The notes under the pieces: model-generated
The model's input: only the letters and a program-made list of their open reading frames with translations
Database searches by the model: none
Told to the model about the DNA's origin: nothing
Part shown: positions 15,295 to 57,909 of the stretch, in pieces
Numbering within the stretch: position 1 is the stretch's first letter
Layout of the letters: each line of letters starts with the position of its first letter
Translations under genes and position numbers: made by a program
NCBI GenBank assembly: GCA_949987565.1
Contig: OX465112.1
Location: 310,001 to 374,000, forward strand
Source: Luidia sarsii
Taxonomy: Eukaryota > Echinodermata > Asteroidea > Paxillosida > Luidiidae
Direction of reading: 5' to 3'
DNA: 64,000 nucleotides

Positions 15295-15379
15295 ATGGTG
15301 GTCCTGAAGGGAATCCCTGGAATTCTATCACCGGAATTGCTCTTCGCCCTAGCCCAGATGGGTCACGGGGACGAAATAG
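15295..15379 (+). CDS. FUOM: FUOM exon 1
   Basis: Encodes MVVLKGIPGILSPELLFALA then QMGHGDEI, the family N-terminus with the active-site His in GHGD. The donor is ATAG|GTAAGT, phase 1. Confidence 0.95.
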
Positions 15380-30300: not shown

Positions 30301-33300
30301 CATAGCCCCCCAAACTAGTTAGGCCCATAGCAACCTTGTTGTAACTTGTAAACAATGTTGTTGTAATAAAACACATGAGTACAGTAGGCTGTGTCTCCAA
30401 ACCCAATGCTCCTGACATGATGGAGATGTTCACAAGAGTTTCCCTCCTTATTACATGCAGTTGCCTCGTAGTTTGAAAAAGAGAGGAGCATTTCCAAGTC
30501 AAATGTGTGGATATCTATTTAAAATATATATGATTGTCCATCTCAGCTCAGTGTCTCATTTTGAGATCCAGTCCATTGGGGTCGGGTAGATACCTGTATG
30601 ACTCCAAACTCATCTGGCTGCGGAGAGATAGACCTTGGCGACTGTGTGCAGTGAATTGTTTGCATACAGACTTTGAAATCTGTTCTTTATCCAGCCTGGT
30701 GGCTTTTTGTCAAGAGGGCATGAGTGCTGTGTCTGTTCTTGCCCAAGAGGTTTAGTGGCCGGTTAAGCACCAAAAATAAAGGACCATCTTTCTTCTCCCT
30801 CCCCCCCTTCTTGCACTCCTCTGTTTGCTGATCCCCAATTACAACCTCCAATCTTGATCGGCCCTTTCTTCCCCTCTTCACTTGGGCAGCCTTCAGGACA
30901 CTTGTAATCTCTGATTTGGGCTTTGTCCGTCCCTTTGTGAAGCGTTGTGAAGTCTTAGATAGGCACAAGGGAGCCGAGTGTTCACATCTCTTTGCACTCC
31001 CTGTCTTAAGTGGACCTCTCTTTTTTTTTTTCAAAGTGTGATTTTTTTTTTCATTGGGGGACAAATTGGTTTCGTTTTTCTGGCCAACAACGGGATTGTG
31101 TGTTTCTAAGTTGCAACCACAAAAATGCACTTTGTGCAAATACGTTGCATGCTTCCTTCTTCCTTTTTTTCATACTTTACTTCTTTTTTCTTTCTTTTTT
31201 ATTCTTTTTGATTCTTATCCCTTTCACCTTTCAATTTAGTCTTTTCCTTAAGGTTTCCCTTTCTGTTCCTTTCTTGTCCCCTTTCTGCTTTCCAAGGGGG
31301 TGGTATCAAAGCTCCTTTTCACCCTCAAGACTGATTTAGCCGAACAAATAAAGGAAACGCTGACTGGCAACTTTTTAAACATTTAAACAAAATGGCCAAG
31401 AAAACTTTGACTGGATCGGGATATGAACCCGAGACCGCTGGTTTTGTGTACCAGTGCTCTTACCATTTCAGCTATTTTTTCCAGCCCTTCAATGATGCCC
31501 TTCCTAAATAATCTTTACCAGGTTGGTGGGCAGGGGGGGGGGTTGGCAGAACCAGAGGCAATTCAACCATTAACTGTCATATAATATATGATCTACAGGG
31601 ATCAAGCCCCCCCTCTCATTCAGATGTAACAACCAATTGTTGTAAACCTGGCTACAGCATCTCGGGGATCACAAAAAATGGACGCAGGTTTTTCAATGTC
31701 AAACTAAGAAAGGGAAAAGTGACTGGGAACTATTGAAACCTCTTTGAAAAATGGCAAAGGAAACTTGACTGGTGTAGTCCAAGTTTACTTTGCCATTTTG
31801 TTTCTAAAAAAGATTGTTCGGGGGGGGGGGGGAGTGAGGGGATCCTAACATGCCTTATTAGGCCTAAGTCGAGTCTTAGATCTGCAGTTTACATTGTATT
31901 AAAACCATGTTGGTAATGCTGTACCAAATATTAAAACAAACAGGAAATGCTGTAAAGAAAATCCTTTCTTTTTTAACTTGCAGTTCTAGCTGATGCAAAT
32001 TTTCCATCCTGTTCAGTAAGTGCGGCAGGACCAAGGCAGATAAGAGCGGATGGTAGGTGTAGAATCTTGAAATATATTCTTTTTGACATTGCCTTATTGA
32101 ATTAGACAAACTAATGTGAGCCTTTTACCATTTTGACTAAAAAATTCTACTCTCAGCTATTCCACATTTTTTTAAAATGATTCAGTCTTGCATTGTGTCA
32201 TTGTGTCGTTGTGGCATTGTGTCATTGTGTCATTGTGTCATTGACATCTTGACGAAGAATGGCAGTCTGCAGCCTAAATGTCACTACCTCCCTGCTGACA
32301 TCATCGTGAGCCTGTGTACAGCTTATCCTTTCCTCATCTTCCCTGATGAACAACCTCCTTTCTAGTAGATGCATTCCTTTGTTGGGTTGAATTAAGAAGT
32401 GTAGATACTAAGGACCTGTTCAGCAGGTTACAGCTTCAAGTAGTCCCAGATTGTGACACCCTGCTTACTGACATTAAATGACTAAATTACAAAGCTCCAA
32501 AAGATTAGAGTGCCTGAAGTTGTGACCCTAGGTAGCCTTTCTTCTGCCTCAGATAGATGTCCAGCCCAGCCAGGTGAAAAGGGGAGGGGGTTCACCGTGA
32601 ACTTGAAGAACATAATAAAAGTCAGATAAGATTTGAAGGTTTGCCTGGTGGAAATACCAAATGGAAGATTTGCTGTGACACCACATCTCTTTGGAGACAG
32701 AGTGTGGCTCTGAAAAGAGCCGGTAAGTTCGGTAACTCAACATTCCATGCAGTGTGTACTCTGCTCGTCTCCTAGGGAATAAAAGTCCATTGCATCAGCT
32801 GTTGTTCAGGTGTATTATCAATTGCTGGTATGCTAGACCACATACAGGATCACTTCCTTGGTTCTTGGTAAGTAAACCAGTGAACATGATCGTGTACCAC
32901 AGGGTCAAACATTCAAGGAATTGGTGCTGTAATACTGCTGTTAAACATGCACGCGTGCAGATAGTTCAGTTGTACGGCGCATGAGATAGACTTGTATAAT
33001 CCTCAACCTCTGCTGTTTTTTTTTTTCACTGAATAGGTCACGGAATACCTGAGCTCTTAGAAGCTATTTTGCAGTTGCTGCCTTTGGATGAGTTCGTGAC
33101 CTGTCCGGTTAGAAACACATTAATTAATTAAGTTATTAGCAAGACCCCAACCCCCTTCCTCCCCCCCAAAAAAATCCCAAATTTACTAGAAATGCAAGAA
33201 TCAACATGTAGAGGACCCAGTACCGATAATGAAATAAAAATAAAAAAAATTAAAGCTTGAATTTTTTTTTGACAAATTGGAGAGGGCCATGACCTAAGGG

Positions 33301-42434: not shown

Positions 42435-45400
42435 GAAATGACAAATGGAAACACGGAAGAAGTTCGGGGGGGGGGTGCAGAATTTGAGAAGGTTCATTAG
42501 TAGAGGCAATGTTAGCATTTCTGATCAGGTATGTGTGGAATTAACATTAATTTTCCCCTCTGGTTGTGATAACAGCCACTTGAGGATAGCAAGACTACCC
42601 AGTTAGGAAGCATGTACATAAACATCCCTAGCAACTACTACTACTACTTTCAGATAAAGTACGGGTATGAGGATTATGCACTCTTTCCAAATGGTTAGGA
42701 GTTAGGGCTCTATCTTAAGAAAAAAGGGTAGTGACAACAATTTGTGTGCGTGTGTGTGTGGGGGGGGGAGTACATCATCAGCAGGAAAATAGGGGAGGGA
42801 AATGAGATGGAGTTGGGATCATTTTAAAACTTGTCTTATCGGTTATTGATTGAAATGCAAAACCTTCCGTCTGGGGGTTGTTGTTTGTATAATAGCGATA
42901 ATATTATCTGCCGTCCTTTGACCAAAGGTCATCAGTTATCAAGGGGAGGGGGGGATTACACTGTCTCTATAGACACAAGCTCCATCATGGTTTGTTGTGA
43001 AAATGAAATGGCTGGTTGTGTGGGCACTCTGCCAATTGCTGGAATGCCAGAGGGGGAGCCTACAGACAGGTGTTTTCATTGTATTGGAATAGTAACATGT
43101 GACCACACCTTCTGCTTACACTCAAAGCTTTATTTTTTTATGAATGGGATTGGAACCAAACAAAATGAAAACCAAATAAATAGCTCGTGCCCTGAGCATA
43201 CCTTCTCTTTTCTTTTCTGGTGAGGCATGACCTCCAAGCTATTTAGATATCAGTGCCTGTGAATAACCGGTTCCCTCCCCCATGTCGCCAGTTGGTAACC
43301 ACCATGTAGTATTTGTCCGGAAGCTATGGTGTTAACACACTCCTTTGAACTAAGGACCCCTGCAGTGATGTACCAGCTGGAGTGGGTCTCTTTCTCTCTT
43401 TCCCTCTCTTTCTTCCCTCGTTTCTTTTGCTCTTTTTCTCTCTTTTTCTCTCTCTTTCTCTCTTTCCCTCTCTTTCTTCCCTCGTTTCTTTCGCTCTTTT
43501 TCTCTCTTTCTCTCTTTCTCTCTTTCTCTTTCTGTCTTTCTTCCCTTGTTTCTTTCGCTCTCTTTCTCTCTTCCTCTCTGTCTCTCTTTCTCTCTCTTTC
43601 TCTCTTTCTCTCTTTCTCTCTTTCTCTCTTTCTCTCTTTCTCTCTTTCTCTCTCTTTCTCTCTTCCTCTCTTTCTCTCTTTCTCTCTCTTTCTCTCTTTC
43701 TTCCCTCGTTTCTTTCGCTCTTTTTGTCTCTTTCTCTGACGTGAGCAGGAGCAAGGCTTTATCAGCCACTGATAAATGGAGACAATGATTGGCCAGTTAT
43801 TGAACGAGGACTTGCGGCCTGCCTGCTAAGAGATCAGAGAAGTTGACCATTGACCACTGCTGAGTTGCTTCTGTGGGCTTCAGTCAGTTATGCCACTATT
43901 GTTCGCAGTGACCAAAGAAAAAATAACAACCCAAAACCTGGAAGTGATTCGGTGTCTTGTTTCATTAACCAGCAGTCGATTAATTAGCCTTGAATGAACC
44001 GAGCCCTACTGTGACACACACACTGTGGGTTGCACGGTTATGTGTCTGTGGTTTCCCCTCAATAGCGCGAGCTTAGGATAGTGAGTGTTCACTGATAGAC
44101 ACAGATCTTTGCATGTAGACAGTGCTGCCATGACATGATGCAATAGGTGGACCTCACAGTGGGAGAGAAAGTAAAAGTTTACTCAGAAGCTTTGTGGTCA
44201 TTGTCCGGGCCAGAACAAGGGAAAGCATTGACTGGCTCTCCCCCCACACCCCCTCCATCCCTCCCCGCAAAGGCGGCACCAGAAATCTGTTTCTTTTTAA
44301 TCTGATTTCAGAAGACCGCGCGTATGGTGGAGAGCCAATAGGAATCCCTAGGAAAGAACAGGCCGTTGTCGGAATCCTAAAAGGCTACCCCCTTGTCCGA
44401 AGTCTCCCTCCCCCATATCATAGTGATGACTGTCACTGGGATAGGTGAAGCCGCCCAAATCTCCCCTGGATACAAAAACAATATTTGACATTCTGCCATT
44501 CATCACCAACTGGTCACCCAAAAGCCGGTTTTATTCTTGGCAGCGGTCGTGTAAAGGAGAATGAATCTGCACTTTTACTCACACGTTGCTTGTAGTTACA
44601 GGGAAACATTGTTCCGAGTGAAAGATCCCTCTGTTGACGTCACAAGCAATTGTATAAAAAGGATGATTAGACCGTACAGTTGCAAACACCAGAGATTATT
44701 AGGTCACGCCCAATGACAACAAAAGACCTTCGTTTTCCAGTTTTGCTTTGGGTTTTTTTTTTTGCATTTGTAATTGTGCAATATGAAGAAATGTTGGAAA
44801 CTGATCACTGACTAAAGTGATCTCAAATTGTAGAGCCTGTAGAGGGCTGGACGTTTTCGATCCTAGCAGGACTTTTCTCAAAGGCAGAAACTCCTCTCTC
44901 AGGAGGACTTTTCTCAAAGGCAGAAACTCCTCTCTCAGAAGGACTTTTCTCAAAGGCAGAAACTCCTCTCTCAGAAGGACTTTTCTCAAAGGCAGAAAGA
45001 TGTAAGGCTATTAGAGATATTCCTAAGTCCTATCCATGCACATGTACGTATATAGCCTGATGTTTCCAACCCACATGCTGCATGACATTTCCCATTGGTA
45101 TTCTGCCTTTGAGAAATCTCCTGCTACGATCGAAACTCCCAGCCCTCTATTTTTTGTTTGAAGAATTTTGTTTCTGAAGCCACGATACAGTAATTTATAC
45201 AAAATGGGTGGACTTGTACAGGCCCTTATGGGTTAGGGACTAATTGGATAATGTTTGCACCTGGTACATGCACATGTATGTGGTGAGCATGGAATGTGAT
45301 ACCCAAGGAGTCAGTGTCAGTGTACTTGCTATCAGGAGATACATGTACTGTATGGTTAGTGGCATGGATGAGGTCTGAACTAAGCAAGGTAATGCTTGGG

Positions 45401-48400
45401 TTTCATCTCACCTTTTCTACACCGGAGGGCAATTTTGTTGATTCTTAATGTAATATAACATGTTGTAAGTTGCTTATTTACTTAAATGACCAAAATGCAC
45501 ATTTCAAAGCTAAACTAGAGGCCTTGGCAGTTTGATCAATCCATGACCCCAACCAAAGAAATGAAAGGTCCTGCTACAATCAAAACATTCAATCCACTAA
45601 TTTTTATGAAATATCAATTGTTTTGCAGTATTTGCAGTACAGTGTACTTCTTTCTTTGTGTGCAATGTCGCATGATCGCAGGGTTTCTGTGTAACAATGA
45701 TCTTTGACCTATAACCTCACCCTTTTCTTCTATCACATGACCTGGCTCTCTGGTCTATGTCAAATCCCTGTGAAGTAGCATGTGACTCTCCAACAAATGA
45801 CCTGTGACCCTCACATGACCTACATATATGACCTTTAATTGACTTGTAACCCTCACCTTTCTTGTGACCCTCATGACCTGTGACCTTCACATGACCTGTG
45901 ACCCCAAGTGACCGCTGGTCAAGAATGGATACATTTTCCAATCAACCAAAAGTAGTCTAAGTTGGATTTTGTTGCTTTTGGTTTGTGTGTAGGCAGTGTT
46001 GATGGATTTGGTGCCGAATCACAGGGAAGAGGGACTTAAGACACCGGTGTGGGACAAGTACCAGGCACTGCTGAATGCATCTCATGGCAAGAAGGTAAGA
46101 CACCGGTGTGGGACAAGTACCAGGCACTGCTGAATGCATCTCATGGCAAGAAGGTAAGACACCGGTGTGGGACAAGTACCAGGCACTGCTGAATGCATCT
46201 CATGGCAAGAAGGTAAGACACCGGTGTGGGACAAGTACCAGGCACTGCTGAATGCATCTCATGGCAAGAAGGTAAGACACCGGTGTGGGACAAGTACCAG
46301 GCACTGCTGAATGCATCTCATGGCAAGAAGGTAAGACACCGGTGTGGGACAAGTACCAGGCACTGCTGAATGCATCTCATGGCAAGAAGGTAAGACACCG
46401 GTGTGGGACAAGTACCAGGCACTGCTGAATGCATCTCATGGCAAGAAGGTAAGACACCGGTGTGGGACAAGTACCAGGCACTGCTGAATGCATCTCATGG
46501 CAAGAAGGTAAGACACCGGTGTGGGACAAGTACCAGGCACTGCTGAATGCATCTCATGGCAAGAAGGTAAGACACCGGTGTGGGACAAGTACCAGGCACT
46601 GCTGAATGCATCTCATGGCAAGAAGGTAAGACACCGGTGTGGGACAAGTACCAGGCACTGCTGAATGCATCTCATGGCAAGAAGGTAAGACACCGGTGTG
46701 GGACAAGTACCAGGCACTGCTGAATGCATCTCATGGCAAGAAGGTAAGACACCGGTGTGGGACAAGTACCAGGCACTGCTGAATGCATCTCATGGCAAGA
46801 AGGTAAGACACCGGTGTGGGACAAGTACCAGGCACTGCTGAATGCATCTCATGGCAAGAAGGTAAGACACCGGTGTGGGACAAGTACCAGGCACTGCTGA
46901 ATGCATCTCATGGCAAGAAGGTAAGACACCGGTGTGGGACAAGTACCAGGCACTGCTGAATGCATCTCATGGCAAGAAGGTAAGACACCGGTGTGGGACT
47001 ATAGTACCAGGCACTGCTGAATGCATCTCATGGCAAGAAGGTAAGACACCGGTGTGGGACAAGTACCAGGCACTGCTGAATGCATCTCATGGCAAGAAGG
47101 TAAGACACCGGTGTGGGACAAGTACCAGGCACTGCTGAATGCATCTCATGGCAAGAAGGTAATAAAGTCAGGAGTACACCTATCTTAGTCCCATCACGTT
47201 TGATGGAGCCCACAAGGTCATGGTATGTGTACCCTCGTCATTCCACGTAATTCCAGGAAATTGCATGCCCGGTGAAAGTCTGGCATCAGCTCCAAACTGC
47301 AGCCAAGTGCTTTGAAAATAAAAATACTAGACACCATTCCCGGTAGATGATCATACTTCCTGAATACTAATGAGAATTGTGCGTTATTTCTGGACATAAT
47401 ATATGATAACATGAAATTGATGGAATACAAACACCCAACTTGACCAAGAAGGCAATGGAGTTGAAGGAGAAACATACTGATTACTCCAAACAAGATTCCG
47501 CAAGATTAGTTTCTTTTATAAAGCAGTTATACACTCGTTGTTTGAATACATCATACAATGTATATGCACTACATTGAAATGAGTCTTGTATTCATTGCCC
47601 TGACATCAATTTATGCGTTTCAATCCAAAACTGAATAATGGGGTGGAGGTCAAATGTCATGATACGTTATTCAATGAAGACAACATGAACCTGTCCCTGT
47701 TAGTCTTGTTCTCAAGTCAGACCTTGTCGTGACAAATGCCAAGTTGATTCAGGCTGCTTGCATCCCGTCCCTCTGACTGATTTATACTGACTGATTGTTT
47801 CATTGAGCAATTTTGAAGATCTATTTATTGGGAAGTGGTAATGGAGCTATACATAATTTTTTTTGTTACCTTTTTGACAAGATCAAAATTTCACTTGGTG
47901 ATACAAAAAAAATGGCTGTAGGTTTCCGGGGGGGGGGGGGGGGGGGGGGGGGGGGTGAGGGGGAGGGGGGTTAGAGTGGGGGTGGGGGAATCTACGGAGG
48001 CATTTACCTGATTTGGTTGCCACGCCGACAGTTGATAAGTTCAACCCCGACCGCAGGCCGTTACAGAAGCCGGCCTCATTGGTCGGCATTTAGTCGCGTT
48101 TGCTCGGCAGGCCAAAAGGTCGTCCGCATTTTGGCATTCCGGAACTTCCTGTACGTACGCACCAAGAGACTCACATCCCTTGGATGCATCTGGAGGTGTC
48201 TCCCCTCCTCCCCCCTCTCCACGGCAAGCATGAGCCAGGCCGACTGCCTCACTGATGGATTGGGTGATAAACGGATGGGACGGTCAAAACAGCAAGGTGT
48301 CTGCACACACGCATGGTTGAAATTCTTCCAGCGAACCTTGCCTTGACATAGCTGAGGTCATGCAGAGGACTAATAATCTTCTGATACATCACGTGCATTG

Positions 48401-51400
48401 GGGGGTTTTTTCTCCGGAGGGGATACATCATATATGATATCTATCTGTATGGTATGTTTCATATCCGTTTACTTTTCTATTTTGTTTTGTTTTTTGGGGG
48501 GTGGGACAGAGGGGGGGGGGGGTCCCCAAATGTTTGAAGGAATGTTTGCCTCTCTGCAGGATTCCGTAGAGTGAGAGTTTGTCTCGGAGAACTGTCCCCG
48601 TCTCTCCCCACACCCCCATCAACCCGCACTGTCCCCGTCTCTCCCCACACCCCCACCAACCCACACTGACACCCTGATTCTCTCCCCACACCCCCACCAA
48701 CCCACACTGACACCCTGATTCTCTCCCCTCCCCCATCAACCCACACTGACACCCTGATTCTCTCCCCTCCCCCACCAACCCGCACTGACACCCTGATTCT
48801 CTCCCCACACCCCCACCAACCCACACTGACACCCTGATTCTCTCCCCACCCCACCAACCCGCACTGACACCCTGATTCTCTCCCCACCCCATCAACCCGC
48901 ACTGACACCCTGATTCTCTCCCCACCCCCACCAACCCACACTGACACCCTGATTCTCTCCCCACCCCACCAACCCGCACTGACACCCTGATTCTCTCCCC
49001 ACCCCCACCAACCCACACTGACACCCTGATTCTCTCCCCACCCCCACCAACCTGCACTGACACCCTGATTCTCTCCCCACCCCCACCAACCCGCACTGAC
49101 ACCCTGATTCTCTCCCCACCCCCATCAACCCACACTGACACCCTGATTCTCTCCCCACCCCCAACAACCCACACTGACACCCTGATTCTCTCCCCACCCC
49201 CAACAACCCACACTGACACCCTGATTCTCTCCCCACCCCCATCAACCCATACTGACACCCTGATTCTCTCCCCACCCCCACCAACCCACACTGACACCCT
49301 GATTCTCTCCCCACCCCCATCAACCCACACTGACACCCTGATTCTCTCCCCACCCCCATCAACCCACACTGACACCCTGATTTTCTCCCCACCCCCACCA
49401 ACCCACACTGACACCCTGATTCTCTCCCCACCCCCATCAACCCACACTGACACCCTGATTCTCTCCCCACCCCCATCAACCCACACTGACACCCTGATTC
49501 TCTCCCCACCCCCATCAACCCACACTGACACCCTGATTCTCTCCCCACCCCCATCAACCCACACTGACACCCTGATTCTCTCCCCACCCCCATCAACCCA
49601 CACTGACACCCTGATTCTCTCCCCACCCCCATCAACCCGCACTGACACCCCAACCAACACCCCAACCCCAATTCTCTCCCTACCCCCACCAACCCTTCAA
49701 CCCAAAAGTTAATCGGAAGCTTCGCTCATAGCTAGTGTGCATTGCCATGGTCAGCATTGATTCTCTGTTTTTTCTTTTCCTTTTTTTTTAGGGGGAGGTT
49801 TTATGACAAATGCATCAAAAGTTATGTAAAGGGCGCCATTTGTGGGTACACTTTTTATAGTAAACTCTTATATAGCCAACACTGTTTTTATAGTTGACTG
49901 GCTATTGTGCTTGCCAGCTTAGCCAAGTTTATCCCTGCGTAATACCATGGTAATGCCATGCCACCAGTTATAGCCTATTTGTGAGCGGTTTTACATTCTT
50001 AGGGGGCTTTGAGGTTGACAAGGAATCTGTTACAACCTGAACTATAGTTGCATCGATTTGAATGCCCAACAGGCGCCGTCTTTTTACCTTCCTCTTTCCC
50101 AAGCTCAGTAAATATTATGATTCCAGGTGCTAAGTGATCTCATGTAGCTTTCCCCACAGCCACTGGATTGAATGCATCCCTTTGTCAGCCTTTTTTCATC
50201 TCCACCTGCTCTGTTGGACTGGATAAAGGCAGACACCTCCAAATATTTGTGGTCTGCAAAACCAATGCCAGCCGAAATTCCTTGCAGGTTGTTCCCATTC
50301 ACTGGCTGTGATTATCAATGCCATACCTCGGTGTGATTTGAAATGAAGGGCGGGGGGGGGGGGGGGGGGGGTTGAGAGGGGGGTGTTATCCCAACATGAG
50401 CACACACAAAGTGGACTTGAGTGGTGCGATGTTTTAATGCAGAGAGGGGGTGGGGGATTGTGAGAGAGATTCTACCGAAGGTCTGTCGATGTGTATTGAC
50501 CAAATTTTTTTTTTTTCTATTCTCTCTCCTCTTTGATCTGGAATTGGACAGGGGAAAATCCGGGAAAGAACCCTGATTCATGAGCACCTTCCTTTGTCAT
50601 AGCCTAGTGATATCCATGGTGGTGTGGTGCCTGATTCTAATATCCACTAGTTGTTGCTGGGGGAGGGAAGGTACAATCAATTTCACGACCAAAAGAAATA
50701 CTGAATAGGGTAACATTTCCGCCTGGGCTAATGGTCCGATGCACCTGGCTTTATTCCAAGGGGGTTGGCAGAATGCCCATAAACTTAGAAGTGCACCCCC
50801 CCCTCATCCAACCCCCATCCATCCCCATCCCTCTCCTTCTCAAAACATGTGACAGGTCACACTTAATGTAGTGCTACAGATTGCACTTGAGCAGACCATT
50901 CATAAAGATATGCATTGACAAAATATCCAAGTGGGGTATGGTCCGTAGATAGAAAGGGGGCCACAGACCTATGCAAAGGAGTTAGGACACTTTGTTCAAG
51001 GCCATACAACATTGGGAAGGTCAGAAAACATCGATGTCCACAGATTTCCTTTTAATTTACACAGTTTGTAAATGGTCCTGATAGAATCCTCATGTTGAAA
51101 TCCTACAGTCTGGGATACTGTACTTTTCGAGAAATCTCCACTCAAACATCGACAAATAGTTTATTACTCGTGAGTAATAAACTATTTCTTACACTACAGA
51201 ATGGTGCGAAAATTGTGAAGGTTTTTTTCCTTTTTCTACTAGATTAACATTTGAGCTAAAACCTTAGGCAGGATTTATTTGGGGAATGTTTAATGGTTAA
51301 ACACACAAACTGTGACAATATTTTACTTTTACCAATGTTGTATTGTAAGTTGAGCTGTGATGCATCGTAACGCTTTGTGAAATGGACTCCTGGCTCCAAA

Positions 51401-54400
51401 TTGTATCATCCATTCTTTTGCTTGAACTTCAGACCATTGTTTGGCCAATCCAATGAATCCCCTCTTGCTACATTGGTATAGCTCAAAATATTTCCATCAT
51501 ACTGGAGACTTTGTAAACGCCTGCTTATTTGTATCAGGACGTGTCCAAAGTTTGTTCAGCTGTTAAACCCATGCTTCACACATCTGCGTATTCATAAGAG
51601 CAACTTCCTTTATCCGGCAAAAGAAAAAAGTACGGGTTAAAGATTGGGACACACAGCTATAGCCCCCAAATAAGATTTGATAAGTAGGACTCACATTGAC
51701 CTACCGGAAGGATCTCTGGAAAGTTGCCCAACCCCTTATTAATTGAAGTGTTCTAAATGTTGTAGTCAGTATTTTTGCTTCGTTAAACTGGTATGCACTG
51801 GTATGCAATGTCTATAAAGTCATAATGGTTTTAATCTCCTGAATTGTTTGGGCTCTTGGTTACATTATTACTCATTCATTCGTAAGCCATGGCCAAATGA
51901 ATGGGCTATGGCTAGACATTGCACACAGGTCTACTACAAGTGGCTTACAAAGCTGCCTATAGGCTTCCGTGCAGTAGATAGTCAATGACTTTGGAGATTG
52001 ACAATAAGGGTTCCAGTTGTACTGTAGAGAAGAAGTAAATCAGGCCCTGATATCTGGGGCATGGGCTCAGTCCCAGGCTGATATCTGGTGCATGGGCTCA
52101 GTCTCAGGCTGATATCTGGGGTATGGGCTCAGTCTCAGGCTGATATCTGGGGTATGGGCTCAGTCTCAGTCTGATATCTGGGGTATGGGCTCAGTCTCAG
52201 GCTGATATCTGGGGCTTGGGCTCAGTCTCAGGCTGATATCTGGGGCTTGGGCTCAGTCTCAGGCTGATATCTGGGGTATGGGCTCAGTCTCAGGCTGATA
52301 TCTGGGGCTTGGGCTCAGTCTCAGGCTGATATCTGGGGTATGGGCTCAGTCTCAGGCTGATATCTGGGGCATGGGCTCAGTCTCAGGCTGATATCTGGGG
52401 CTTGGGCTCAGTCTCAGGCTGATATCTGGGGTATGGGCTCAGTCTCAGGCTGATATCTGGGGCATGGGCTCAGTCTCAGGCTGATATCTGGGGCATGGGC
52501 TCAGTCTCAGGCTGATATCTGGGGCATGGGCTCAGTCTCAGGCTGATATCTGGGGCATGGGCTAAGTCTCAGTCTGATATCTGGGGTATGGGCTCAGTGT
52601 CAGGCTGATATCTGGGGCTTGGGCTAAGTCTCAGGCTGATATCTGGGGCATGGGCTCAGTCTCAGTCTGATATCTGGGGTATGGGCTCAGTGTCAGGCTG
52701 ATATCTGGGGCTTGGGCTAAGTCTCAGGCTGATATCTGGGGTATGGGCTCAGTCTCAGGCTGATATCTGGGGTATGGGCTCAGTCTCAGGCTGATATCTG
52801 GGGTATGGGCTAAGTCTCAGGCTGATATCTGGGGTATGGGCTCAGTGGGGTATGGGCTCAGTCTCAGGCTGATATCTGGGGCATGGGCTCAGTCTCAGTC
52901 TGATATCTGGGTTATGGGCTCAGTCTCACTCTCAGTCTGATATCTGGGGTATGTGCTTGTAGGCTCTTACTTAATTCTGTTCACTTACTGCGCCATCCTT
53001 AAATCAATCTGAAAGCGTAAAGCTATATGTCCAGTGATACACACACATCACGTCTCATTACAGTCTTTGCTGTAAAAATTACTGACTCGTTTGAATTGCA
53101 GGTGGAGATGGAACTATGTGAGCGCTTTGCCTTCTATGACAGAGCCAAGAAGGCATTCGCCGTGGTTGCAACTGGGTAAGTCATCAACATCTCCTTACAG
53201 CTACTACATAACCATTCTCCTTACAGCTACCACATAACCATTCTCCTTACAGCTACCACATAAGTATTCTCCTCACAGCTACTACATTTATAACCATTCT
53301 CCTTCCTTAAATGCGACTCTAAACATGAATGCTGCAAGCAGAAGAAGAAACGAAGAGAAAGAGTTTACAAGTGGTTGTCTCTTTCACCGGGTTAAAGCAC
53401 CGGGTTAAAGCACAGTGTGAAAGGAGGTGGGGTTACTCCATTACACTGCAAATGTCTTGAATAAGTTCAGGGCCCAACTGGGAAGGGGATGGAAGGGTGC
53501 TACTCTCACCACAGTGCCCCCATCTGGCCTGGGCTTGTGGTTTTGGCCTTTGGGGGTTGATGTATTGTTCTGGGAGAACAGAAAAAAGTAGAAGTAGGTC
53601 GTGCGCAGGGGAACACTTAATGCTTCACAAGTTCACACTGATCCTGCCAGTAATTCAGTCAATCGTTGGGAAGAGCAGAGAAATTAGAGACGAACGATTT
53701 GTGACATCTAGGTCAGAGACCTTTGGAAAGGAAATAGAAAAAAGAAAGAAGCAAAGCCGATAAAGTCAGGAGGGATGTAAGGAGCCAACCTTTGTGTGAC
53801 CCTCCATAGCCGTAGCCTTGCGGGACTATTTTTTTTATCTGTTTGCGGTTCTCCGTTGTGGCTACTGGGGACTGACTGTCGACAGCTGGTCTGGGCTGGC
53901 TGTCTGATGCAGAGGCTGGCCCGTTCCCTCGTCAACCCAATCTGCATACAGTGCTCAGGCAGCGCGGCCATTATATGCAAATGCCGGCCCGGAGTCTGCT
54001 TTTGGTCGGTCGGTCGCCCCGGAATCCCGGATCGATGAGATGAGGCTCCCGCTCACGTCTTTTTTTTTTCTTTTCTTGATTTGGATATTCAGGCTGGCTG
54101 GTGCCTCGCAGGGAAAATTGACTCTCCGCGCAACAGAGAAATGAGTCACATGTCCCTGCCTGTCCCCCACAGATATTGATTTATCAATGAAAAGTGTGAA
54201 ATAGTTTACAGGGCAGAAGACCTGGAAATCATGTCATACAATCCTTTGGCTGGCTGAGCTATTTTTAGACTATGGGTATTGCTTACAAAATGTTACAAGT
54301 TTGGGTTTTGTTTCCTGGTCAGAGGTGTAAGTTGCTTCCAAAAAAAATGATACAATTTTATTCATTTTTTAAGAAAAAGTGATAATAAATTGAACAATGT

Positions 54401-57400
54401 TTGTTATCCTGCTTTTTAGACATTTTTGAAAAAAATGACAAAGAAAACTTTGACTGGACTGGGACTTGAACCTGAGACATCTGGTTTTGCATTCCAGTGC
54501 TCGAACCATCTGAGCTATCCTGGCGGCCAAAATAGGCAACTCGTGTTTGTCAGGGTGGGGGCGCCAGTCAGAAGCATTTTCCCATTAACTGCCATATTAT
54601 CTCTCCACATTACAGAACACTCCCAAGTTTTTATTCAGATCCAAACAACTGATGGTTGTCAACCTAGATATTGTAACATGATGTTTTGCATCGAGAAGAG
54701 TGTACCGGGGGTAATTCAATGAGGGTTTGACCTGCTCAATGTGATAAACACTGATGCCAATGCCCATGCCTGATGAAAAAATCAGGCAGCTCAGGCAGGA
54801 TTTGAACCCGCGACTCCTGCTTTCTAATGCAGCCATCTGCACTACAAAGCAGGAGTTGTGGGTTCGAATCCCGCCCAAGCTGTTGTGAACCTGGCTACAC
54901 CAGTTCAGGGATCGCACAAAGTGGATGGAACCTTTTCAATATTTAGTTTCCAAAGATGAACCTTAAACATTGTCATTTACCTTTAGTCGACATACACTTA
55001 CATGTAGGTCATGTGATCTATGCTGTCCAATCACAGAAAGTACATTATTGGCAGGTACATGTATTGCAATTTGCAAACGATGCAAATATGTTCTGAAATA
55101 TTGTTGTCAGAAAGCATTTTAAGATGGCATACCCCCTCACCCTAAAAAGACAAAGGAAAAGAGAAACAAGCTCAAGGTGATCAATATTTATTCATATCAA
55201 TTGGCAAATGACTGCTGGAAATTGCTGACATGCTCCCCACAGTCCTCAGTCTTGGTGCTATCTTTAAACCCAAGGGAGGAGCATTGTTTTGTGTCAGCAA
55301 TTGTGGATAAATAGTAGGATTTGATGGACAGACATTACAACCTCCATCAGCTGATTGCTTTTGACAAGTAGCATGTGGGGAAACTGTTACCCCAGTCCCA
55401 GCCTTCTCCCTCTTTTCCGGAAACAATGGTTGGTATTTCTTGAAAAACAACTTGTTTTTTCCCCACCAAAGCCCAAATCCCGAGGAATTAGGTAAACATG
55501 TTGTCATTATTTTGGAGGGGGTGACGATTTAACCCTCTGCCATACCCCAGAGGGACAGCCAATAAATGTTGGTTTTGGTCAGGACAGTTGGACAAGGAGG
55601 AAGAGAGTACGGGAGGGGGAGAAGGGCTGTCAGATATTGAGTCAGTTGAGGGGGGGGGGGGGCTACTGTATTTTTCACTCCTCCTTGTCAACACCGGGAG
55701 TAGGGTACCACTTAACATTGCCGACCTAACCTGTTAAGTATAACCTTCATCAGTGACCTGAACAATGAAACCCCAAATACCAAAGATTTTTCTTTCTTTC
55801 TTTTTGCCAGCTAGGGGGGGGGGGGCATTTTTTTTCATTCTAATTTCCAGTCCAAGAGAGGGGGCTGAAGTACAACATTGTCAGATTTGATTAGACGCAA
55901 TATGTTTTCTCACTCGCAACCCCCACCTCCCATAAAAAGAGAAAGTCTTAAAAGCCCCAATTTATCTCGGGTTGAATTATGGAGAAGTTATTTCTTCAAA
56001 CAGAGTCTGAGTGGATGGTTCAGACAAAACAAGCAGTAGAGGTTATTGGCTACATGGTCCTATTGGTCTATGATGGCAATAGCTACGTCAACAATGCCCC
56101 CCCTCCCTTCCCTCCTAAAAAAAGTCTCCCTTTTTTGGTCAAAAAGGAAATGTTTACATTGTCCCCTATCCTTCGTGGGAATCTGGGATACCACTGACAG
56201 TCCCGGCGAGCACTGGTACACTGTAGCTGTTGGTTTCCGTTGGATCCTTGATTTCCATGGAATTGGATGTCAGGAATAGTTTTCACACGCATACATGTAC
56301 ATGTACAGCAGGTGTCCTTACTCCTGACCACAGCTATCTCCATTACTATTGGCTGCAACTCCTAGGGTGACATTGTGCGTCATAATAACAAGAAAACAGA
56401 CAATAATCCAACAATTTCACACACACTGCATTCACCTCATGAAGTAGCCTACAGTATAGTGCTGTATACTGGTCTGTTTTTTTACATTTCTGAGCTGGTT
56501 TTGAGTGCACCCAAAAAAATAGGCAGATCGTTTTTGATTCGTTTTTAAAGAGCTAAGTTGCAATTGATGAATGTTGGCTTGCTCATTCATCCTGAGAATG
56601 TTCAACCACCCCTGAGGAGTGGATGCATTATCACCCAGTGTGTCGTCATGGAAATGAGTGCTTGACCGAGGCAGGGGACGATTTCACTAACGCTTTGCGA
56701 TCATCACAAACGCCAAAACCGACCGCTAAGTCTGAAATCCATCACAACTTAGGATCGGTGTACCACTAAGTTGTGGTGGATTTCAGACTTAGCGATCAAT
56801 TTTAGCATTTGCGATGATCGCAAAATATTAGTGAAATCTGCCCCAGGTCAGAAGTCTGGGCCTGTGGTCTTCAATTTGCTGACAAGTTGCAGCAAGCAGC
56901 TTGCCCAATAAACTGCTGTGTATCAGTCTTCATACTGGGGAGGAAACTAAATTGCCAAAATAAACATGCCAGTATTTCAATTGGTACTCGCAGGCAAATG
57001 GACGTGTACATGTATGTGCTTGTGGTTGACATTACACATGCCACAAGTATGCAGTAGAAATGTGTGCATAAATGTTGATAATTATTGAAAGCAAGCCAGT
57101 AGGTTGTGAAGGAGCAAGTGTTAACGTTGTAGTTGATGCCACCACATACCTGCATATGTGATTTATGAGACCCAAACATTTCTTTTCCAAAGTTGTTCAA
57201 AGGTTCCCAGTCAGTTTCCCCTTAAATTTTGTTTGACTGAATGTGAAAAAGCTGCATACACTTTATGCAATCCTTGAACTGCTGTAGCAAAGTTTACAGT
57301 CATGAATGGGTTGTTTGACTTGCATCTGAATGTTCATTTAGTCAGTGAGCAGTTTGCAGCAGTTTCTTGTATTTACTAAATAAATGATACACGGCAGTTA

Positions 57401-57909
57401 ATGGTTGAATGCTTCTGACTGGTGCCCCCACCCCAGCAAAGACTAGTTGACTATTTATTTGGGAAGGCCACCATCTAAGGGCTGGATAGCTCAGATGGTA
57501 AGAGCACTGGTACATTAAGGCACATGGCTCAGGTTCAAGGCCCGGTCCAATCAAAGGTGTTTTTTTTATTGTTTAATGGTTCCCAGTCAGGTTTTCCTTT
57601 AATTTTGTCAACCATCAGATTTAATTGACATTTTATAGACAAGATGTGTGAAGATAGCTGTTTTAATCTAACTTAAGAATAAAATCAACTTACAAGATTT
57701 GCTGTCACTCTGATGATGAAAGCTTACGCATTCATCTCAACTTTTTAGTCAAGCAATATACGTGGCTTCAAGGCACTTTAGGATAAACATACGAGATGCT
57801 CATTATCTGTCTTTAAAAAGTCTTCCTTTTTTTTGTATGTGTCTGCAGGGAGAAGGCTCTATACGGCAACCTCATACTGAAGAAAGGAGTCATATCGTCT
57901 GGTCAGTGA
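15295..57909 (+). CDS. FUOM: Fucose mutarotase (FucU/RbsD family), 6 exons
   Basis: Joined exons 15295-15379, 31984-32052, 33037-33107, 45993-46094, 53102-53175 and 57849-57909 give 462 nt and 153 residues, against 154 in the human protein. The enzyme interconverts alpha and beta anomers of L-fucose and feeds the fucose salvage pathway to GDP-fucose; it is cytosolic and the family forms rings. Family hallmarks are in place: GHGDEIVLAD (23-32) with the active-site His24, IPELLEAILQLLPLD near 55-69, LKTPVW at 90-95, FYDRAKKAFAVVATGE (120-135), and ALYGNLILKKGV (137-148) with the conserved Tyr139. Intron phases are 1, 1, 0, 0, 2, each with GT...AG. Introns total about 42 kb, very large for so short a gene. 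The odd feature is a 59-bp tandem array copied from the end of exon 4. The start is the only ATG with a strong context (A at -3, G at +4) matching the family N-terminus. Confidence 0.95.
16130..16456. mobile_element. Inverted-repeat element (MITE-like) M2 with about 110-bp arms
   Basis: The left arm contains TTACCTACAC, AATAAAC, GTAGACAATAGCCATTGTCT, GCACAACCACTTTCCCCC and AATCATGATT. The right arm, reverse complemented, repeats these in order with CCTACACC, CAATAAAC, GTAGACAATAGCCATTTTCT and CAACCACTTGCCCCC. The outer ends match as TAATACCTACAC. There is no open frame inside, as expected of a non-autonomous DNA element. Confidence 0.75.
17299..17352 (+). mobile_element. tRNA-derived SINE, 3' fragment
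   Basis: GGTCTAGTCAAAGTTTTCTT then TGCCAATTTTTCAATTTCCA matches the 3' end shared by the other SINE copies (GGTCCAGTCAAAGTTTTCTT, TGCCATTTT). The tRNA-like head is missing. Confidence 0.55.
18244..18276. repeat. Short perfect hairpin
   Basis: ATTCCATCACTCTA, a 4-base loop GCCA, then the reverse complement TAGAGTGATGGAAT. Isolated; function unknown. Confidence 0.6.
19456..19607. mobile_element. Foldback family A, compact copy (two cores back to back)
   Basis: A minus-oriented core (GGGCCTGATATTTCGATCCT, AGCAGGACTTTCTCAAAGGC) meets a plus-oriented core (AAAGGTCCTGCTAGGATCAA, AACGTCAGGCCCTCTAACTT) with almost no spacer. It is followed by the right arm (TGTATTGCAGGTCATT, CAGTGAGCAGTTTGCAACAG). 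The inner arms of the longer copies are missing. Confidence 0.85.
19678..19712 (+). mobile_element. Foldback family A, decayed core piece
   Basis: ATCAAACGTCAGGCCCTCCT then AATTTTTGA matches the 3' half of the core about 70 bp after the previous copy. Confidence 0.5.
20848..21239. mobile_element. Family C inverted-repeat element, copy 1
   Basis: The left end GAGGGTACAC and the right end GTGTACCCTGCCTTTAAA are inverted. The interior carries TTTCTGGACATTCTAGATTT, GAAGTTACT and TAATGGTATCAGACATT, and near the other end TCATGAGATGGTTGACGGAT. These words recur in 23898-24299 in the opposite order and strand, and in part at 26551. Confidence 0.65.
21511..21804. mobile_element. Foldback family A, near full-length hairpin
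   Basis: The left arm runs from TTAATACAAAAACTGTTGCA through the minus-oriented core and inner arm (GACAAAGACATACACAGACA, GTCAGGGGAAGGAAAGCCCT, GACAGAGGAAGGACAAAAGG). The right arm is its inverse (GTGTCAGGGCTTTCTTTCCC, CTGACTGTCTGTGTATGTCT) and ends in the plus core with GGATCGAAACATCAGGCCCT. The arms nearly meet, so the transcript would fold into one long hairpin. No protein-coding capacity. Confidence 0.9.
23000..23205. mobile_element. Family B repeat carrying histone-type 3' stem-loop, copy 1
   Basis: The ends are inverted (GGAAGGTTTTATGGTGACAC at left; GTGTGACTGCAAATCTTCC at right). The left half on the minus strand contains GGCTCTTTTCAGAGCC; the right half on the plus strand contains GAAACGTTGAGTTTCAGAGC then CACACTCCTTCTTGAAACAG, a copy missing the 5' half of the stem. 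The element thus looks like two tail-to-tail copies of the same sequence. The second copy of the family is at 32619-32780. Confidence 0.75.
23089..23104 (-). promoter_or_regulatory. Histone-mRNA-type 3' stem-loop (within repeat)
   Basis: The minus strand reads GGCTCTTTTCAGAGCC, a 6-bp stem and 4-base loop identical to the metazoan replication-dependent histone 3' stem-loop consensus. About 8 bases after it comes the purine-rich TTGAAAGAGAAGAG, in the place of the U7-binding downstream element. No histone reading frame precedes it, so it is a processing signal or a look-alike carried by a repeat. Confidence 0.65.
23898..24299. mobile_element. Family C inverted-repeat element, copy 2 (opposite orientation)
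   Basis: The left end AGGGTACACTTTG and right end GGGCACCCGCCCTTTAAA are the inverted termini. The interior has TGTCAACCATGTCATGAG near the left and, on the minus strand, AATTTGAGAAATTACTTACT and AAGTTTGTAATGGTAATCAA near the right. Confidence 0.65.
25103..25505. mobile_element. Foldback family A, longest hairpin copy
   Basis: Left core GGCGGGCCTAAAGTTTTGAT, inner arm to GACAGAGGAAGGACAAAAGG, a further inner stem GAAGGGAGTGGGATGCA, a central AAGGGAGGGAGTAC repeated twice, then the inverse (TGCATCCCACTCCCTTCCC, TTTGTCCTTCCTCTGTCATG), right core GATCGAAACATCAGGCCCTC and right outer arm ending AACAGATTTTGTATTA. It is longer than the 21511 copy because of the extra central stem of about 25 bp per side. 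Confidence 0.9.
26551..26705 (+). mobile_element. Family C element, truncated copy
   Basis: CTTAAAGGTAGGGTACACCA, TTTCCGGACATTCCACATTT, GAGAAATTACTTACC and AAGTTTGTGATGGTATCATA match the left part of family C; the other half is absent. Confidence 0.6.
26758..26970 (+). mobile_element. tRNA-derived SINE, near full-length
   Basis: The order is GGCAGTTAATGGTTGAATTG, CTTCTGACTGGCGCC, GCAAAGACTAG, then GGCTGGATAGCTCAGATGG (A box type), GAGCACTGGTACATTA, and GGGTTCAAGTCCCGG (B box at 26912-26922). A 3' tail with GGTCCAGCCAAAAGCAAATC follows. Internal RNA polymerase III boxes and a shared tail in about ten copies identify a tRNA-derived SINE and not a tRNA gene: the acceptor stem does not close. 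Confidence 0.85.
27185..27292 (+). mobile_element. Foldback family A, right arm only, diverged
   Basis: TTCTGCCTTTAATATGAGGT, CTTGCTAGGATTGAAACATC, GGGCCCTCTA, then GAGATTTGCATTTGGGACAT and TCAGTTAGCA follow the right-arm order. Confidence 0.7.
27332..27662. mobile_element. Inverted-repeat element (MITE-like) M3
   Basis: The outer ends CCTATAGGGCACGAAGCGCG and, inverted, CCTTATAGCGCGCAAG match. An inner pair also matches: GGACTCCATTTTAGTAAGCA against the inverse of TGCTTACTAAAATGGCGTCT. The element is about 330 bp with no open frame. CTAGCTACACTTGC is tandemly repeated at its left side. Confidence 0.6.
28000..31380. other. Part of FUOM intron 1 with no recognised feature
   Basis: Mixed AT-rich sequence. 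It includes a G/A-rich run (about 29630-29672, GGGGAGGGGAGG words) and T-rich stretches at 31021-31200. Short frames here show no family features. Confidence 0.5.
31390..31585 (-). mobile_element. tRNA-derived SINE, near full-length
   Basis: Minus orientation. The 3' tail AATGGCCAAGAAAACTTTGA precedes TGGATCGGGATATGAACCCG (inverse B box), the anticodon-like region CCAGTGCTCTTACCAT and the inverse A box with CAGCTATTTTTTCCAGCCC, then the body through CAACCATTAACTGTCATAT. Confidence 0.8.
31628..31700 (+). mobile_element. SINE2 tail fragment
   Basis: GTTGTAAACCTGGCTACAGC, TCTCGGGGATCACAAAAAAT and GGACGCAGGTTTTT match the tail at 54888-54940 (GTTGTGAACCTGGCTACACC, CAGGGATCGCACAAAGTGGA). Confidence 0.55.
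31746..31800. repeat. SINE 3'-tail foldback
   Basis: AAAATGGCAAAGGAAACTTG, ACTGGTGTAGTCCAAG, then TTTACTTTGCCATTTTG: the minus-oriented SINE tail is followed at once by its own inverse, without the tRNA-like head. Confidence 0.65.
31984..32052 (+). CDS. FUOM: FUOM exon 2
   Basis: The acceptor is AACTTGCAG and the donor GATG|GTAGGT (phase 1 on both sides). It encodes VLADANFPSCSVSAAGPRQI then RADG; human FUOM has VLADLNFP and IRADG at the same places. Confidence 0.95.
32190..32245 (+). repeat. 10-bp tandem repeat (CATTGTGTCA type)
   Basis: Five to six imperfect copies of a 10-bp unit, with CGTTGTGGCA as one variant. Confidence 0.8.
32457..32545 (-). mobile_element. Foldback family A, strongly diverged piece
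   Basis: CTGCTTACTGACATTAAATG, AAAGATTAGAGTGCCTGAAG, TTGTGACCCTAGGTAGCCTT and TCTTCTGCCTCAG follow the order of the minus-oriented arm and core with many changes. Confidence 0.4.
32619..32780 (-). mobile_element. Family B repeat with histone-type 3' stem-loop, copy 2
   Basis: It shares AGATTTGAAGGTTTGCCTGG, GGAAGATTTGCTGTGACACC and ATCTCTTTGGAGACAGAGTG with copy 1. The minus strand carries GGCTCTTTTCAGAGCC at 32721-32706, followed by CCAAAGAGATG. Upstream on the minus strand lies a stem GCAG...CTGC and then AATGTTGAG, the diverged counterpart of GAAACGTTGAG in copy 1. Confidence 0.75.
32706..32721 (-). promoter_or_regulatory. Histone-mRNA-type 3' stem-loop, second copy
   Basis: Again GGCTCTTTTCAGAGCC on the minus strand, followed by CACACTCTG and the purine-rich CCAAAGAGATG about 11 bases later. 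No histone frame lies upstream. Confidence 0.65.
33037..33107 (+). CDS. FUOM: FUOM exon 3
   Basis: A T-rich tract ends in GAATAG before the exon. It encodes GHGIPELLEAILQLLPLDEF then VTCP. The donor is CCG|GTTAGA, weaker than the others, phase 0. Confidence 0.95.
34497..34990 (+). repeat. CT-rich microsatellite, with pure (CT)n core
   Basis: TCTCTCCCTCTCACTCTC-type repeats lead into an uninterrupted (TC)n at about 34897-34953. The long open frames on both strands (Ser/Leu and Arg/Glu repeats) are products of the dinucleotide and not genes. Confidence 0.95.
37308..37380 (+). mobile_element. tRNA-derived SINE, diverged piece
   Basis: GGTTCGGGTGGTTAGATCGA, GTGCTGGTACATTAAACCAG, AGGTCCCAGGTTCGAGCCCC keep the tRNA-like middle and a good B box (GGTTCGAGCCC); the A box has decayed. 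Confidence 0.65.
37865..38035 (+). repeat. ATTAACTC tandem array split by a family A core
   Basis: Repeated CATTAACTCATTAACTCAGT and CATTAACACATTAACTC units run from 37865 to 37944 and from 38001 to about 38035. Between them sits a single family A core. Confidence 0.85.
37945..38000 (+). mobile_element. Foldback family A, minimal 56-bp core insertion
   Basis: GGCCTTTGAGAAAGGTCCTG, CTAGGATCGAAACGTCAGGC, CCACTAAATTTTAAGA, flanked on both sides by the same ATTAACTC array. The clean borders define how short a copy of this family can be. The 3' part (CCCACTAAATTTTA) matches the 12118 subfamily. Confidence 0.85.
38925..39135 (+). repeat. CT-rich low-complexity tract
   Basis: Irregular CTCTCCCTC and CTCCATCTCC repeats. 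Open frames here are low complexity. Confidence 0.9.
39989..40170 (-). mobile_element. tRNA-derived SINE, near full-length
   Basis: Tail AAAATGGCAAAGAAAATTTT, GACTGGACCGGGACTTGAAT (inverse B box), TACCATCTGAGCTATCCAGC (inverse A box), then GGTGCCAGTCAGAAGCG and AACCATTGCTGTATA. Confidence 0.85.
42272..42300 (-). mobile_element. SINE tail truncated at a GA microsatellite
   Basis: AAATGGCAAAGAAAACTTTG then ACTGGACAAAG is the SINE 3' end. It stops exactly where (GA)n begins. Confidence 0.7.
42298..42432 (+). repeat. (GA)n microsatellite
   Basis: AAAGAGAGAG with a few GGGAGG interruptions, then about 80 bp of uninterrupted GA ending in GGGGGAAATG. Frames on both strands are artefacts. Confidence 0.95.
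43386..43738 (+). repeat. (CTTT/CTCT)n microsatellite with a longer-period repeat
   Basis: CTCTCTTTCTCT units, punctuated several times by a higher-order word TTCCCTCGTTTCTTTCGCTC (first copies near 43412, 43478, 43542, 43700). The 120-139 codon frames here are low complexity. Confidence 0.93.
44635..44660 (+). promoter_or_regulatory. CRE plus TATA-like pair inside FUOM intron 3
   Basis: TGACGTCA at 44635-44642 is followed 10 bp later by TATAAAAA at 44653-44660, the spacing seen in many inducible promoters. No exon is recognised just downstream. Confidence 0.3.
44775..44998 (-). mobile_element. Foldback family A arm with 36-bp tandem amplification
   Basis: The minus arm (GAAACTGATCACTGACTAAA, GTGATCTCAAATTG) and core (GACGTTTTCGATCCTAGCAG) lead into four tandem copies of a 36-bp unit (GGACTTTTCTCAAAGGCAGA, AACTCCTCTCTCAG) at about 44866-44998. 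The unit is the outer half of the core, so it arose by local duplication of the element. Confidence 0.85.
45099..45152 (+). mobile_element. Foldback family A core, diverged
   Basis: TTCTGCCTTTGAGAAATCTC, CTGCTACGATCGAAACTCCC, AGCCCTCTA. Confidence 0.7.
45473..45640. mobile_element. Foldback family A, decayed inverted pair
   Basis: A minus-like part (TTACTTAAATGACCAAAATG, TAGAGGCCTTGGCAGTTTGA) is followed by a plus-like part (GAAAGGTCCTGCTACAATCA, AAACATTCAATCCACTAA) and TTTTGCAGTATTTGCAG. Confidence 0.5.
45715..45905 (+). repeat. TGACC-rich short direct repeats
   Basis: Words such as ATGACCTGTGACCCTCAC recur irregularly about eight times. They include spaced TGACC half-sites of the nuclear-receptor type, but the repetition alone explains them. 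Confidence 0.6.
45993..46094 (+). CDS. FUOM: FUOM exon 4 (first copy of the 59-bp unit is its 3' end)
   Basis: The acceptor is TTTGTGTGTAG. The exon encodes AVLMDLVPNHREEGLKTPVW then DKYQALLNASHGKK, matching VMELVPSDKERGLQTPVW of the human enzyme. I end the exon at the first of 19 donors (AAG|GTAAGA at 46095) because only this one continues in frame into exon 5 without a stop. The last 59 bp to 46094 are the founder of the tandem array that follows. Confidence 0.93.
46095..47158 (+). repeat. 59-bp tandem array derived from FUOM exon 4 and its splice donor
   Basis: Eighteen added copies follow the original exon end: seventeen of 59 bp and one of 61 bp (the copy starting near 46981 has TATAG in place of AAG). 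All others look identical by eye. Each unit is GTAAGACACCGGTGTGGGAC, AAGTACCAGGCACTGCTGAA, TGCATCTCATGGCAAGAAG. It therefore starts with a 5' splice site and continues with the last 53 bp of the exon. The last unit ends at AAG|GTAATAAAG, presumably the ancestral donor. The near-perfect identity implies recent expansion or gene conversion. Confidence 0.95.
48594..49696 (+). repeat. 39-bp minisatellite
   Basis: The unit is CCCACACTGACACCCTGATT, CTCTCCCCACCCCCATCAA, in about 28 copies with C/T and A/G variants and a few length variants near the left end. As 39 is a multiple of three, frames stay open over long stretches; the minus strand gives a 13-residue repeat (VSVWVDGGGERIR) for 410 codons. 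I read it as non-coding because it lies in an intron, is open in more than one frame, and has no upstream coding context. Confidence 0.95.
51154..51187. repeat. Perfect 34-bp palindrome
   Basis: AAATAGTTTATTACTC, GT, then GAGTAATAAACTATTT: 16-bp arms with a 2-base centre. Confidence 0.9.
52047..52960 (+). repeat. 31-bp minisatellite
   Basis: The unit is CTGATATCTGGGGCATGGGC, TCAGTCTCAGG, in about 29 copies. Variants GTATGGGC, CTTGGGC and TAAGTCTC are interspersed and suggest higher-order duplication. One partial unit lies near 52845. Confidence 0.95.
53102..53175 (+). CDS. FUOM: FUOM exon 5
   Basis: The acceptor is TGAATTGCAG and the donor ACTGG|GTAAGT, phase 2. It encodes VEMELCERFAFYDRAKKAFA then VVATG, the most conserved part of the family (human: ERFEFYERAKKAFAVVATG). 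Confidence 0.95.
53187..53298 (+). repeat. 26-bp tandem repeat resembling a 3' splice site
   Basis: Four copies of TTCTCCTTACAGCTACCACA, TAACCA begin 11 bp after the exon 5 donor (TTACAG or TCACAG at 53195, 53221, 53247, 53273). Each copy has a short pyrimidine tract ending in ACAG. Confidence 0.85.
53870..54060. promoter_or_regulatory. GC-rich unique patch with an octamer motif
   Basis: A GC-rich stretch in intron 5 contains ATTATATGCAAATGCC with a perfect ATGCAAAT octamer (53975-53982), CGGTCGGTCGCC and GGATCGATGAGATGAGG. It is not a recognised repeat and has no coding frame. It could be an enhancer. Confidence 0.25.
54423..54599 (-). mobile_element. tRNA-derived SINE, near full-length
   Basis: AAAATGACAAAGAAAACTTT, GACTGGACTGGGACTTGAAC, CATCTGAGCTATCCTGGCGG, GCGCCAGTCAGAAGCATT, CATTAACTGCCATATTAT. 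Order and boxes as in the other copies. Confidence 0.85.
54778..54940. mobile_element. SINE2: two tRNA-like heads in inverted orientation
   Basis: CAGGCAGGATTTGAACCCGC and GACTCCTGCTTTC (inverse B box) face AAGCAGGAGTTGTGGGTTCG and AATCCCGCC (forward B box, GGTTCGAATCC). The two arms of about 45 bp pair with each other. The tail GTTGTGAACCTGGCTACACC follows on the plus side and is shared with 31628-31700. Neither arm forms a full tRNA. Confidence 0.7.
56674..56844. mobile_element. Hairpin element (MITE-like) M4
   Basis: GGGGACGATTTCACTAACGC, TTTGCGATCATC, CCGCTAAGTCTGAAATCC, ATCACAACTTAG is followed by a short loop and the inverse CTAAGTTGTGGTGGATTTCA, GACTTAGCGATCA, GCGATGATCGCAAAATATTA, GTGAAATCTGCCCC. 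The arms are about 75-80 bp, and no coding frame is present. Confidence 0.8.
57333..57375 (+). mobile_element. Foldback family A, right outer end
   Basis: TTCATTTAGTCAGTGAGCAG then TTTGCAGCAGTTTCTTGTAT matches the outermost right arm. It abuts the SINE copy starting at 57390. Confidence 0.6.
57390..57600 (+). mobile_element. tRNA-derived SINE, near full-length
   Basis: ACGGCAGTTAATGGTTGAAT, GCTTCTGACTGGTGCC, GGCTGGATAGCTCAGATGGT (A box), AAGAGCACTGGTACATTA, GGTTCAAGGCCCGG (B box changed by one base), GGTCCAATCAAAGG and a T-rich tail. This is the cleanest copy of the head region. Confidence 0.88.
57849..57909 (+). CDS. FUOM: FUOM exon 6 and stop
   Basis: The acceptor is GTGTCTGCAG. The exon encodes GEKALYGNLILKKGVISSGQ and stops at TGA 57907-57909. 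The ALYGNLIL(K/R)KGV signature closes the family fold; the tail differs from vertebrates. Confidence 0.95.

Follow-up and report, generated by a model that had tools for sequence, protein, structure and literature searches.

The 5′ splice site of exon 4 in a predicted fucose mutarotase gene (FUOM) has been multiplied into 19 consecutive donors by a 59-bp minisatellite (46037..47159, + strand; TRF and script) that spans the exon's end and the start of intron 4. Only the first of these donors yields FUOM. We consider it likely that the array is a 'mirage'-type minisatellite, a kind of exon–intron boundary repeat described in amphioxus, that it arose through a tandem duplication joined at a shared TAA, and that donor 1 is the one used while copies 2–19 are inert intron sequence.

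Six exons on the + strand, located through homology and splice signals in the 64-kb stretch of DNA analysed here (the window), join into a predicted gene that is complete within the window and encodes a 153-residue FUOM. Coding exon 1 opens with the ATG (15295..15379, placed by the splice-consistent six-exon translation) and is followed by exon 2 (31984..32052), exon 3 (33037..33107), which ends in a weak donor (CCG/GTTAGA; slashes mark exon–intron borders), exon 4 (45993..46094, 102 nt), exon 5 (53102..53175) and exon 6 (57849..57909), which includes the stop codon. All five introns are GT-AG. Exon 4 begins at the acceptor ...GTGTGTAG/GCAG and lies between introns of 12,885 nt upstream and 7,007 nt downstream. 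Judged by its sequence, the predicted protein is a full-length member of the RbsD_FucU family: residues 5–149 match PF05025 over profile positions 1–138 of 138 (E 3.5e-42). The translation predicted through donor 1 retains an intact, full-length FUOM; it can be aligned from end to end to sea-star FUOM and to the solved chain 2wcu ('protein FucU homolog', which we take to be the mouse protein; E 3.1e-62 over 149 residues).

Several other elements lie in and around these introns. In intron 2, the minus strand carries an Rfam histone 3′ UTR stem-loop match above the gathering score (32681–32726), beside which the ORF list contains no minus-strand ORF of at least 100 aa. Two Rfam tRNA matches on the minus strand (31408–31481 and 54451–54524), uncalled by ARAGORN, are perhaps tRNA-derived repeats. 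In intron 3, a pair of 35-nt inverted arms (44855–45135), 91% complementary and 211 nt apart, encloses a 36-bp tandem array and looks like a MITE-type element. Intron 4 holds minisatellites with 39-bp units (48603–49650, about 27 copies) and 31-bp units (52047–52928, at least 26 copies). A second splice-signal-like array (53190–53287; 26-bp units, 3.8 copies by TRF) starts 15 nt into intron 5, after the exon 5 donor; here pyrimidine-plus-CAG, acceptor-like sequences are repeated, most with CATAA upstream.

The exon 4 array is close to perfect. TRF places it at 46037–47162 (period 59, 19.1 copies, 99% matches, score 2234), and a script counts 19 units, 18 of them letter-identical, bearing out the tandem array of 19 donors that an earlier, sequence-only reading had described. 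The exception, unit 17 (46981..47041, + strand), carries TATAG in place of AAG and is 61 nt long. Units 1–16 show no difference at a shift of 59 nt, which excludes chance; ungapped identity between adjacent units is 100% across these 16, compared with 84, 94, 93 and 99% in four other arrays of the window (39-, 31-, 26- and 36-bp units, respectively). Each unit contains a 10-nt palindrome, ACACCGGTGT. The repeat had been taken to be the last 59 bp of the exon; the 59-nt period stands, but 58 bases of the unit are exonic and the remaining one is the donor's G, and its exact border cannot be fixed because TAA is common to both ends. Copy 1 thus takes in the final 58 nt of exon 4 together with this G, and copies 2–19 lie downstream, in intron 4. 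Stops occur within three units in all three + frames, so the array cannot be coding, and with 59 not a multiple of 3 the unit cannot stay in the mRNA in frame. An antisense gene is likewise ruled out by a minus-strand stop in each 177-nt period (three units).

The donor GTs stand at 46095 + 59n for n = 0–15 and then at 47041, 47100 and 47159, as the sequence-only reading had given them, with the 2-nt shift starting at donor 17. Donor 1 (46095..46100) and donors 2–18 (46154..47105; 46154 + 59n up to 46980, then 47041 and 47100) read AAG/GTAAGA on the + strand, and only donor 19 (47159..47164, +) reads AAG/GTAATA. All 19 borders carry AAG/GTAAG or AAG/GTAAT; the splice signal has been multiplied with the unit. 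The computed U1 duplex is −9.5 kcal/mol for donors 1–18 and −6.6 kcal/mol for donor 19, in agreement with the claim that the internal donors are stronger than the last, and −11.6, −10.7, −4.3 and −10.3 kcal/mol for the remaining FUOM donors. Overlapping donor 19 (GTAATAAAG), where intron 4 probably began before the duplication, is an AATAAA that resembles a polyadenylation signal (47161–47166).

Donor 1 alone keeps the FUOM frame. Donors 2–19 (18 of 18 translations) share a frame that reads ...KKVRHRCGTSTRHC and then, as had been anticipated from the letters, reaches a stop codon in unit 2, giving one 121-residue truncation. The distance from this stop to the exon 5/6 junction downstream of it, given for 4 of the 18 donors, runs from 94 nt with donor 2 to 1,099 nt with donor 19. 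The usual limit for nonsense-mediated decay is 50–55 nt upstream of the last junction. As the stops lie past that limit, decay would be expected for transcripts spliced at donors 2–19, in line with the earlier expectation of transcript loss should the later donors be used.

The junctions suggest how the donors came about. TAA is present at both ends of the repeat, in the exon (...CTTAAGACACC) and in the intron (...GGTAATAAAG); the exon before the array reads CTTAAGACACC, the inner borders GGTAAGACACC and the last border GGTAATAAAGTC. A short tandem duplication, with one end in exon 4 and the other just within intron 4, would have been joined at first, probably at the 3-nt TAA microhomology, and later amplified to 19 near-identical copies. 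The join would have placed exonic TAAGA, which comes from the exon's Leu-Lys-Thr codons, after the exon's last base and the G of the old donor. The new upstream donor, GTAAGA, would then have stood at the same position as the old one, in frame and with better U1 pairing than GTAATA, which would explain why the inner donors pair better with U1 than the last. Because the donor was recreated in place, in frame and stronger, the first duplication and each later copy may have been close to harmless at birth, and this junction anatomy suggests why such arrays survive. About 5% of random local breakpoint pairs share at least 3 nt of microhomology, so the TAA fits this route without proving it. Donor 19 is probably the ancestral donor, although it could alternatively have mutated after the duplication. 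That the units match right up to their edges suggests a recent amplification.

The use of donor 1 would follow from exon definition. Exon 4, 102 nt long and flanked by long introns, would be defined by its acceptor pairing with the nearest donor; donor 1 would be spliced, and copies 2–19 would be removed along with intron 4. In the portions of Carranza and colleagues (PMC9225289) available to us, minigenes with two identical strong donors and 365-nt flanking introns used the upstream donor exclusively in 5 of 5, near-equal donors with long introns favoured the one closest to the upstream acceptor, and the same upstream leaning appeared in 725 human events that combined long introns with near-equal donors. 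For amphioxus, the data on Adh3 and globin genes reportedly point to regular splicing undisturbed by the repeated boundaries (PMC3087553, in part), and the accessible text of the PGBD5 paper has duplicated sites in Adh and troponin C yielding no aberrant mRNAs (PMC3902484). From this long-intron rule and the amphioxus statements we infer, by analogy, that donor 1 is used and that the remainder leaves with intron 4; the earlier assertion that splicing must favour the first donor draws its support from the same two sources.

Some observations run counter to this preference. Without control for donor strength, the downstream donor is the preferred one in about 60% (2,497) of 4,171 human events, and weakened donors in the minigenes led to skipping of larger exons (PMC9225289, same portions). 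Those minigenes held two donors, whereas the FUOM array presents 18 competing donors, far more than were tried there. Predicted RNA structure does not make donor 1 stand out in accessibility: its mean unpaired value is 0.65, in a range of 0.55–0.65 across the 19 donors. With all donors about equally accessible in the model, RNA structure is ruled out as a predicted cause of the choice of donor 1.

Were donors 2–19 instead to compete, as the sequence-only reading had suggested they might, a share of transcripts would be lost to nonsense-mediated decay and copy number would set FUOM output. Donors 2–18 match donor 1 in U1 pairing, with donor 19 weaker by 2.9 kcal/mol, their stops lie where decay is expected, and the BflGb6 mirage array differs between amphioxus haplotypes (6 versus 3 units; excerpts of PMC3087553). 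Yet the exclusive upstream use of identical strong donors in minigenes under exon definition (PMC9225289) and the regular splicing reported for the amphioxus cases (PMC3087553, PMC3902484), both as given in partial texts, speak against such competition, and we regard it as unlikely, if worth keeping in view. A splicing rheostat adjusted by copy number strikes us as distinctly unlikely. In it, U1 would bind the 18 strong decoy donors, which would either divert transcripts to decay in a proportion set by copy number or protect the 7-kb intron from early polyadenylation; alleles of different length would then make different amounts of enzyme without any other regulatory change. U1 snRNP is known to protect against premature polyadenylation (telescripting), and the array could be a U1 landing platform that shields long intron 4 from it, for example at the AATAAA that overlaps the last donor. 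In keeping with this, 18 of the 21 NAG/GTRAG sites on the + strand of 15295–58200, an interval that runs from the first ATG to just beyond the last exon rather than between known transcript ends, lie inside the array. Such a role, however, need not have been selected, and recent amplification gives near-perfect identity too; we give a platform hardly any weight.

The AGGT at all 19 borders would also permit dual-specific, recursive splicing, in which an AG in one unit is joined as acceptor to a GT further upstream and the array leaves in steps that are multiples of 59 nt; whatever the path, the same correct mRNA would result as long as it began at donor 1. Tandem AGGT sites in human UBC work both ways and produce isoform ladders, and introns spliced in this manner are 8.4-fold enriched in tandem repeats (PMC10809524, in the sections available). 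The FUOM borders nevertheless look like unlikely acceptors: they end in AAG, contain 50% pyrimidine at −20 to −5 against 62–88% in the five real FUOM acceptors, and have another AG three bases upstream. These features are not decisive, because working dual sites are themselves weaker than single ones (PMC10809524, same sections), and we hold this route to be decidedly improbable. An assembly artefact, with fewer copies or a single one at the true locus, might be suspected from the identity of 18 of 19 units and from the BflGb6 mirage, which appears aberrantly assembled in the amphioxus draft genome (PMC3087553, in part). But unit 17 bears a distinct compound change, off-centre, the unit is not low-complexity and 1.1 kb is easily covered by a single long read; an artefact seems improbable.

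The preferred reading, a TAA-joined mirage with donor 1 in use, concerns a gene that is not from amphioxus. A FUOM protein search scored 8,000 candidates, of which 7,929 passed; among the best 120 of these, the top three matches were Asterias rubens, Patiria miniata and Acanthaster planci (83, 81 and 78% identity), which share 87% with one another, and Branchiostoma FUOM stood among the matches listed at ranks 8 and 29 (72 and 69% identity). In a tree of 20 rows (the window protein and 19 of the best 120 matches; 5 of 17 inner branches well supported), the window protein and the three sea stars form one group (support 96/89), with the window protein outside the Asterias, Patiria and Acanthaster trio (trio support 95/88). 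The matches and this grouping rule out amphioxus as host, and the gene most likely belongs to a sea-star lineage outside the three compared, an assignment that draws on one 153-residue protein.

Divergence along the gene shows no clear mark of the array. Exon 5 is unusually divergent: it has 19 of 24 residues in common with each of Asterias, Patiria and Acanthaster, with changes that include CERF in place of IERF, whereas Asterias and Patiria agree at 23 of 24. In the array part of exon 4, 12–13 of 19 residues match these three sea stars, and Asterias and Patiria agree with each other at 14 of 19. With no clear excess of change there, we rejected the idea that homogenisation has pushed changes into the coding copy; by these comparisons, exon 5, beyond the array, is more divergent than the array part of exon 4.

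A gene with an intact reading frame that appears to offer nineteen donors at near-regular 59-nt steps amounts to a natural experiment on the choice among identical splice sites. Eighteen donors have the same nine-base sequence and a productive outcome is predicted for the first alone, which leaves position as almost the sole variable; the closest experiment, in the available parts of PMC9225289, used two identical donors in minigenes. RNA from a single animal would directly reveal how often exon definition errs.

The sequence-only reading knew of no described case of a minisatellite made of an exon end and its donor. Such repeats have in fact been published as mirages, minisatellite-like repeats over exon–intron boundaries in the Adh3 and globin genes of amphioxus, to which PGBD5 has been likened; excerpts of PMC3087553 and PMC3902484 place the Adh3 cases in Branchiostoma floridae and B. 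lanceolatum, name BflGb6 and BflGb9 as the globin cases, and report length instability and somatic polymorphism for Adh3 mirages. The FUOM array fits their anatomical definition: in both, a tandem repeat across an exon–intron boundary multiplies the splice site. According to the same excerpts, its 59-bp unit falls inside the 10–72 bp range of Adh3 units, and in the BflGb9 mirage, as in the FUOM array, it is an exon's 3′ boundary that has been duplicated. By contrast, BflGb6 units are 81–100% identical with edges that escape homogenisation (PMC3087553, in part), whereas 18 of 19 FUOM units are identical, edges included. The FUOM array is further set apart by its 19 copies, by donors that probably formed at the repeat junction and are stronger than the last, and by a host that is probably a sea star and not a lancelet.

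Other known systems resemble the array less closely, as far as the partial sources go. The dual-specific array of human UBC also has tandem units with AGGT at every border, but its units are coding, in frame and able to act as donor or acceptor (PMC10809524), unlike the out-of-frame, stop-carrying 59-nt FUOM unit with its poor acceptor. Variable tandem repeats at exon–intron boundaries that are able to alter splicing occur in primate segmental-duplication genes (PMC2812944); those are recently duplicated families linked with new introns, whereas FUOM is a metabolic enzyme gene that keeps its normal exon. The model of intron gain through AG/GT duplication (Rogers 1989, as cited in PMC3087553) likewise involves a tandem duplication that includes AG/GT, but the FUOM array copied an existing 5′ splice site, and the protein needs no new intron. 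In the titles and abstract beginnings of the open-licence literature, a weak basis for absence, we found neither an echinoderm precedent for boundary repeats nor mirages outside amphioxus. What is new here is probably an echinoderm mirage with nearly perfect copies, and a sea-star host would mean that mirages are no peculiarity of lancelets.
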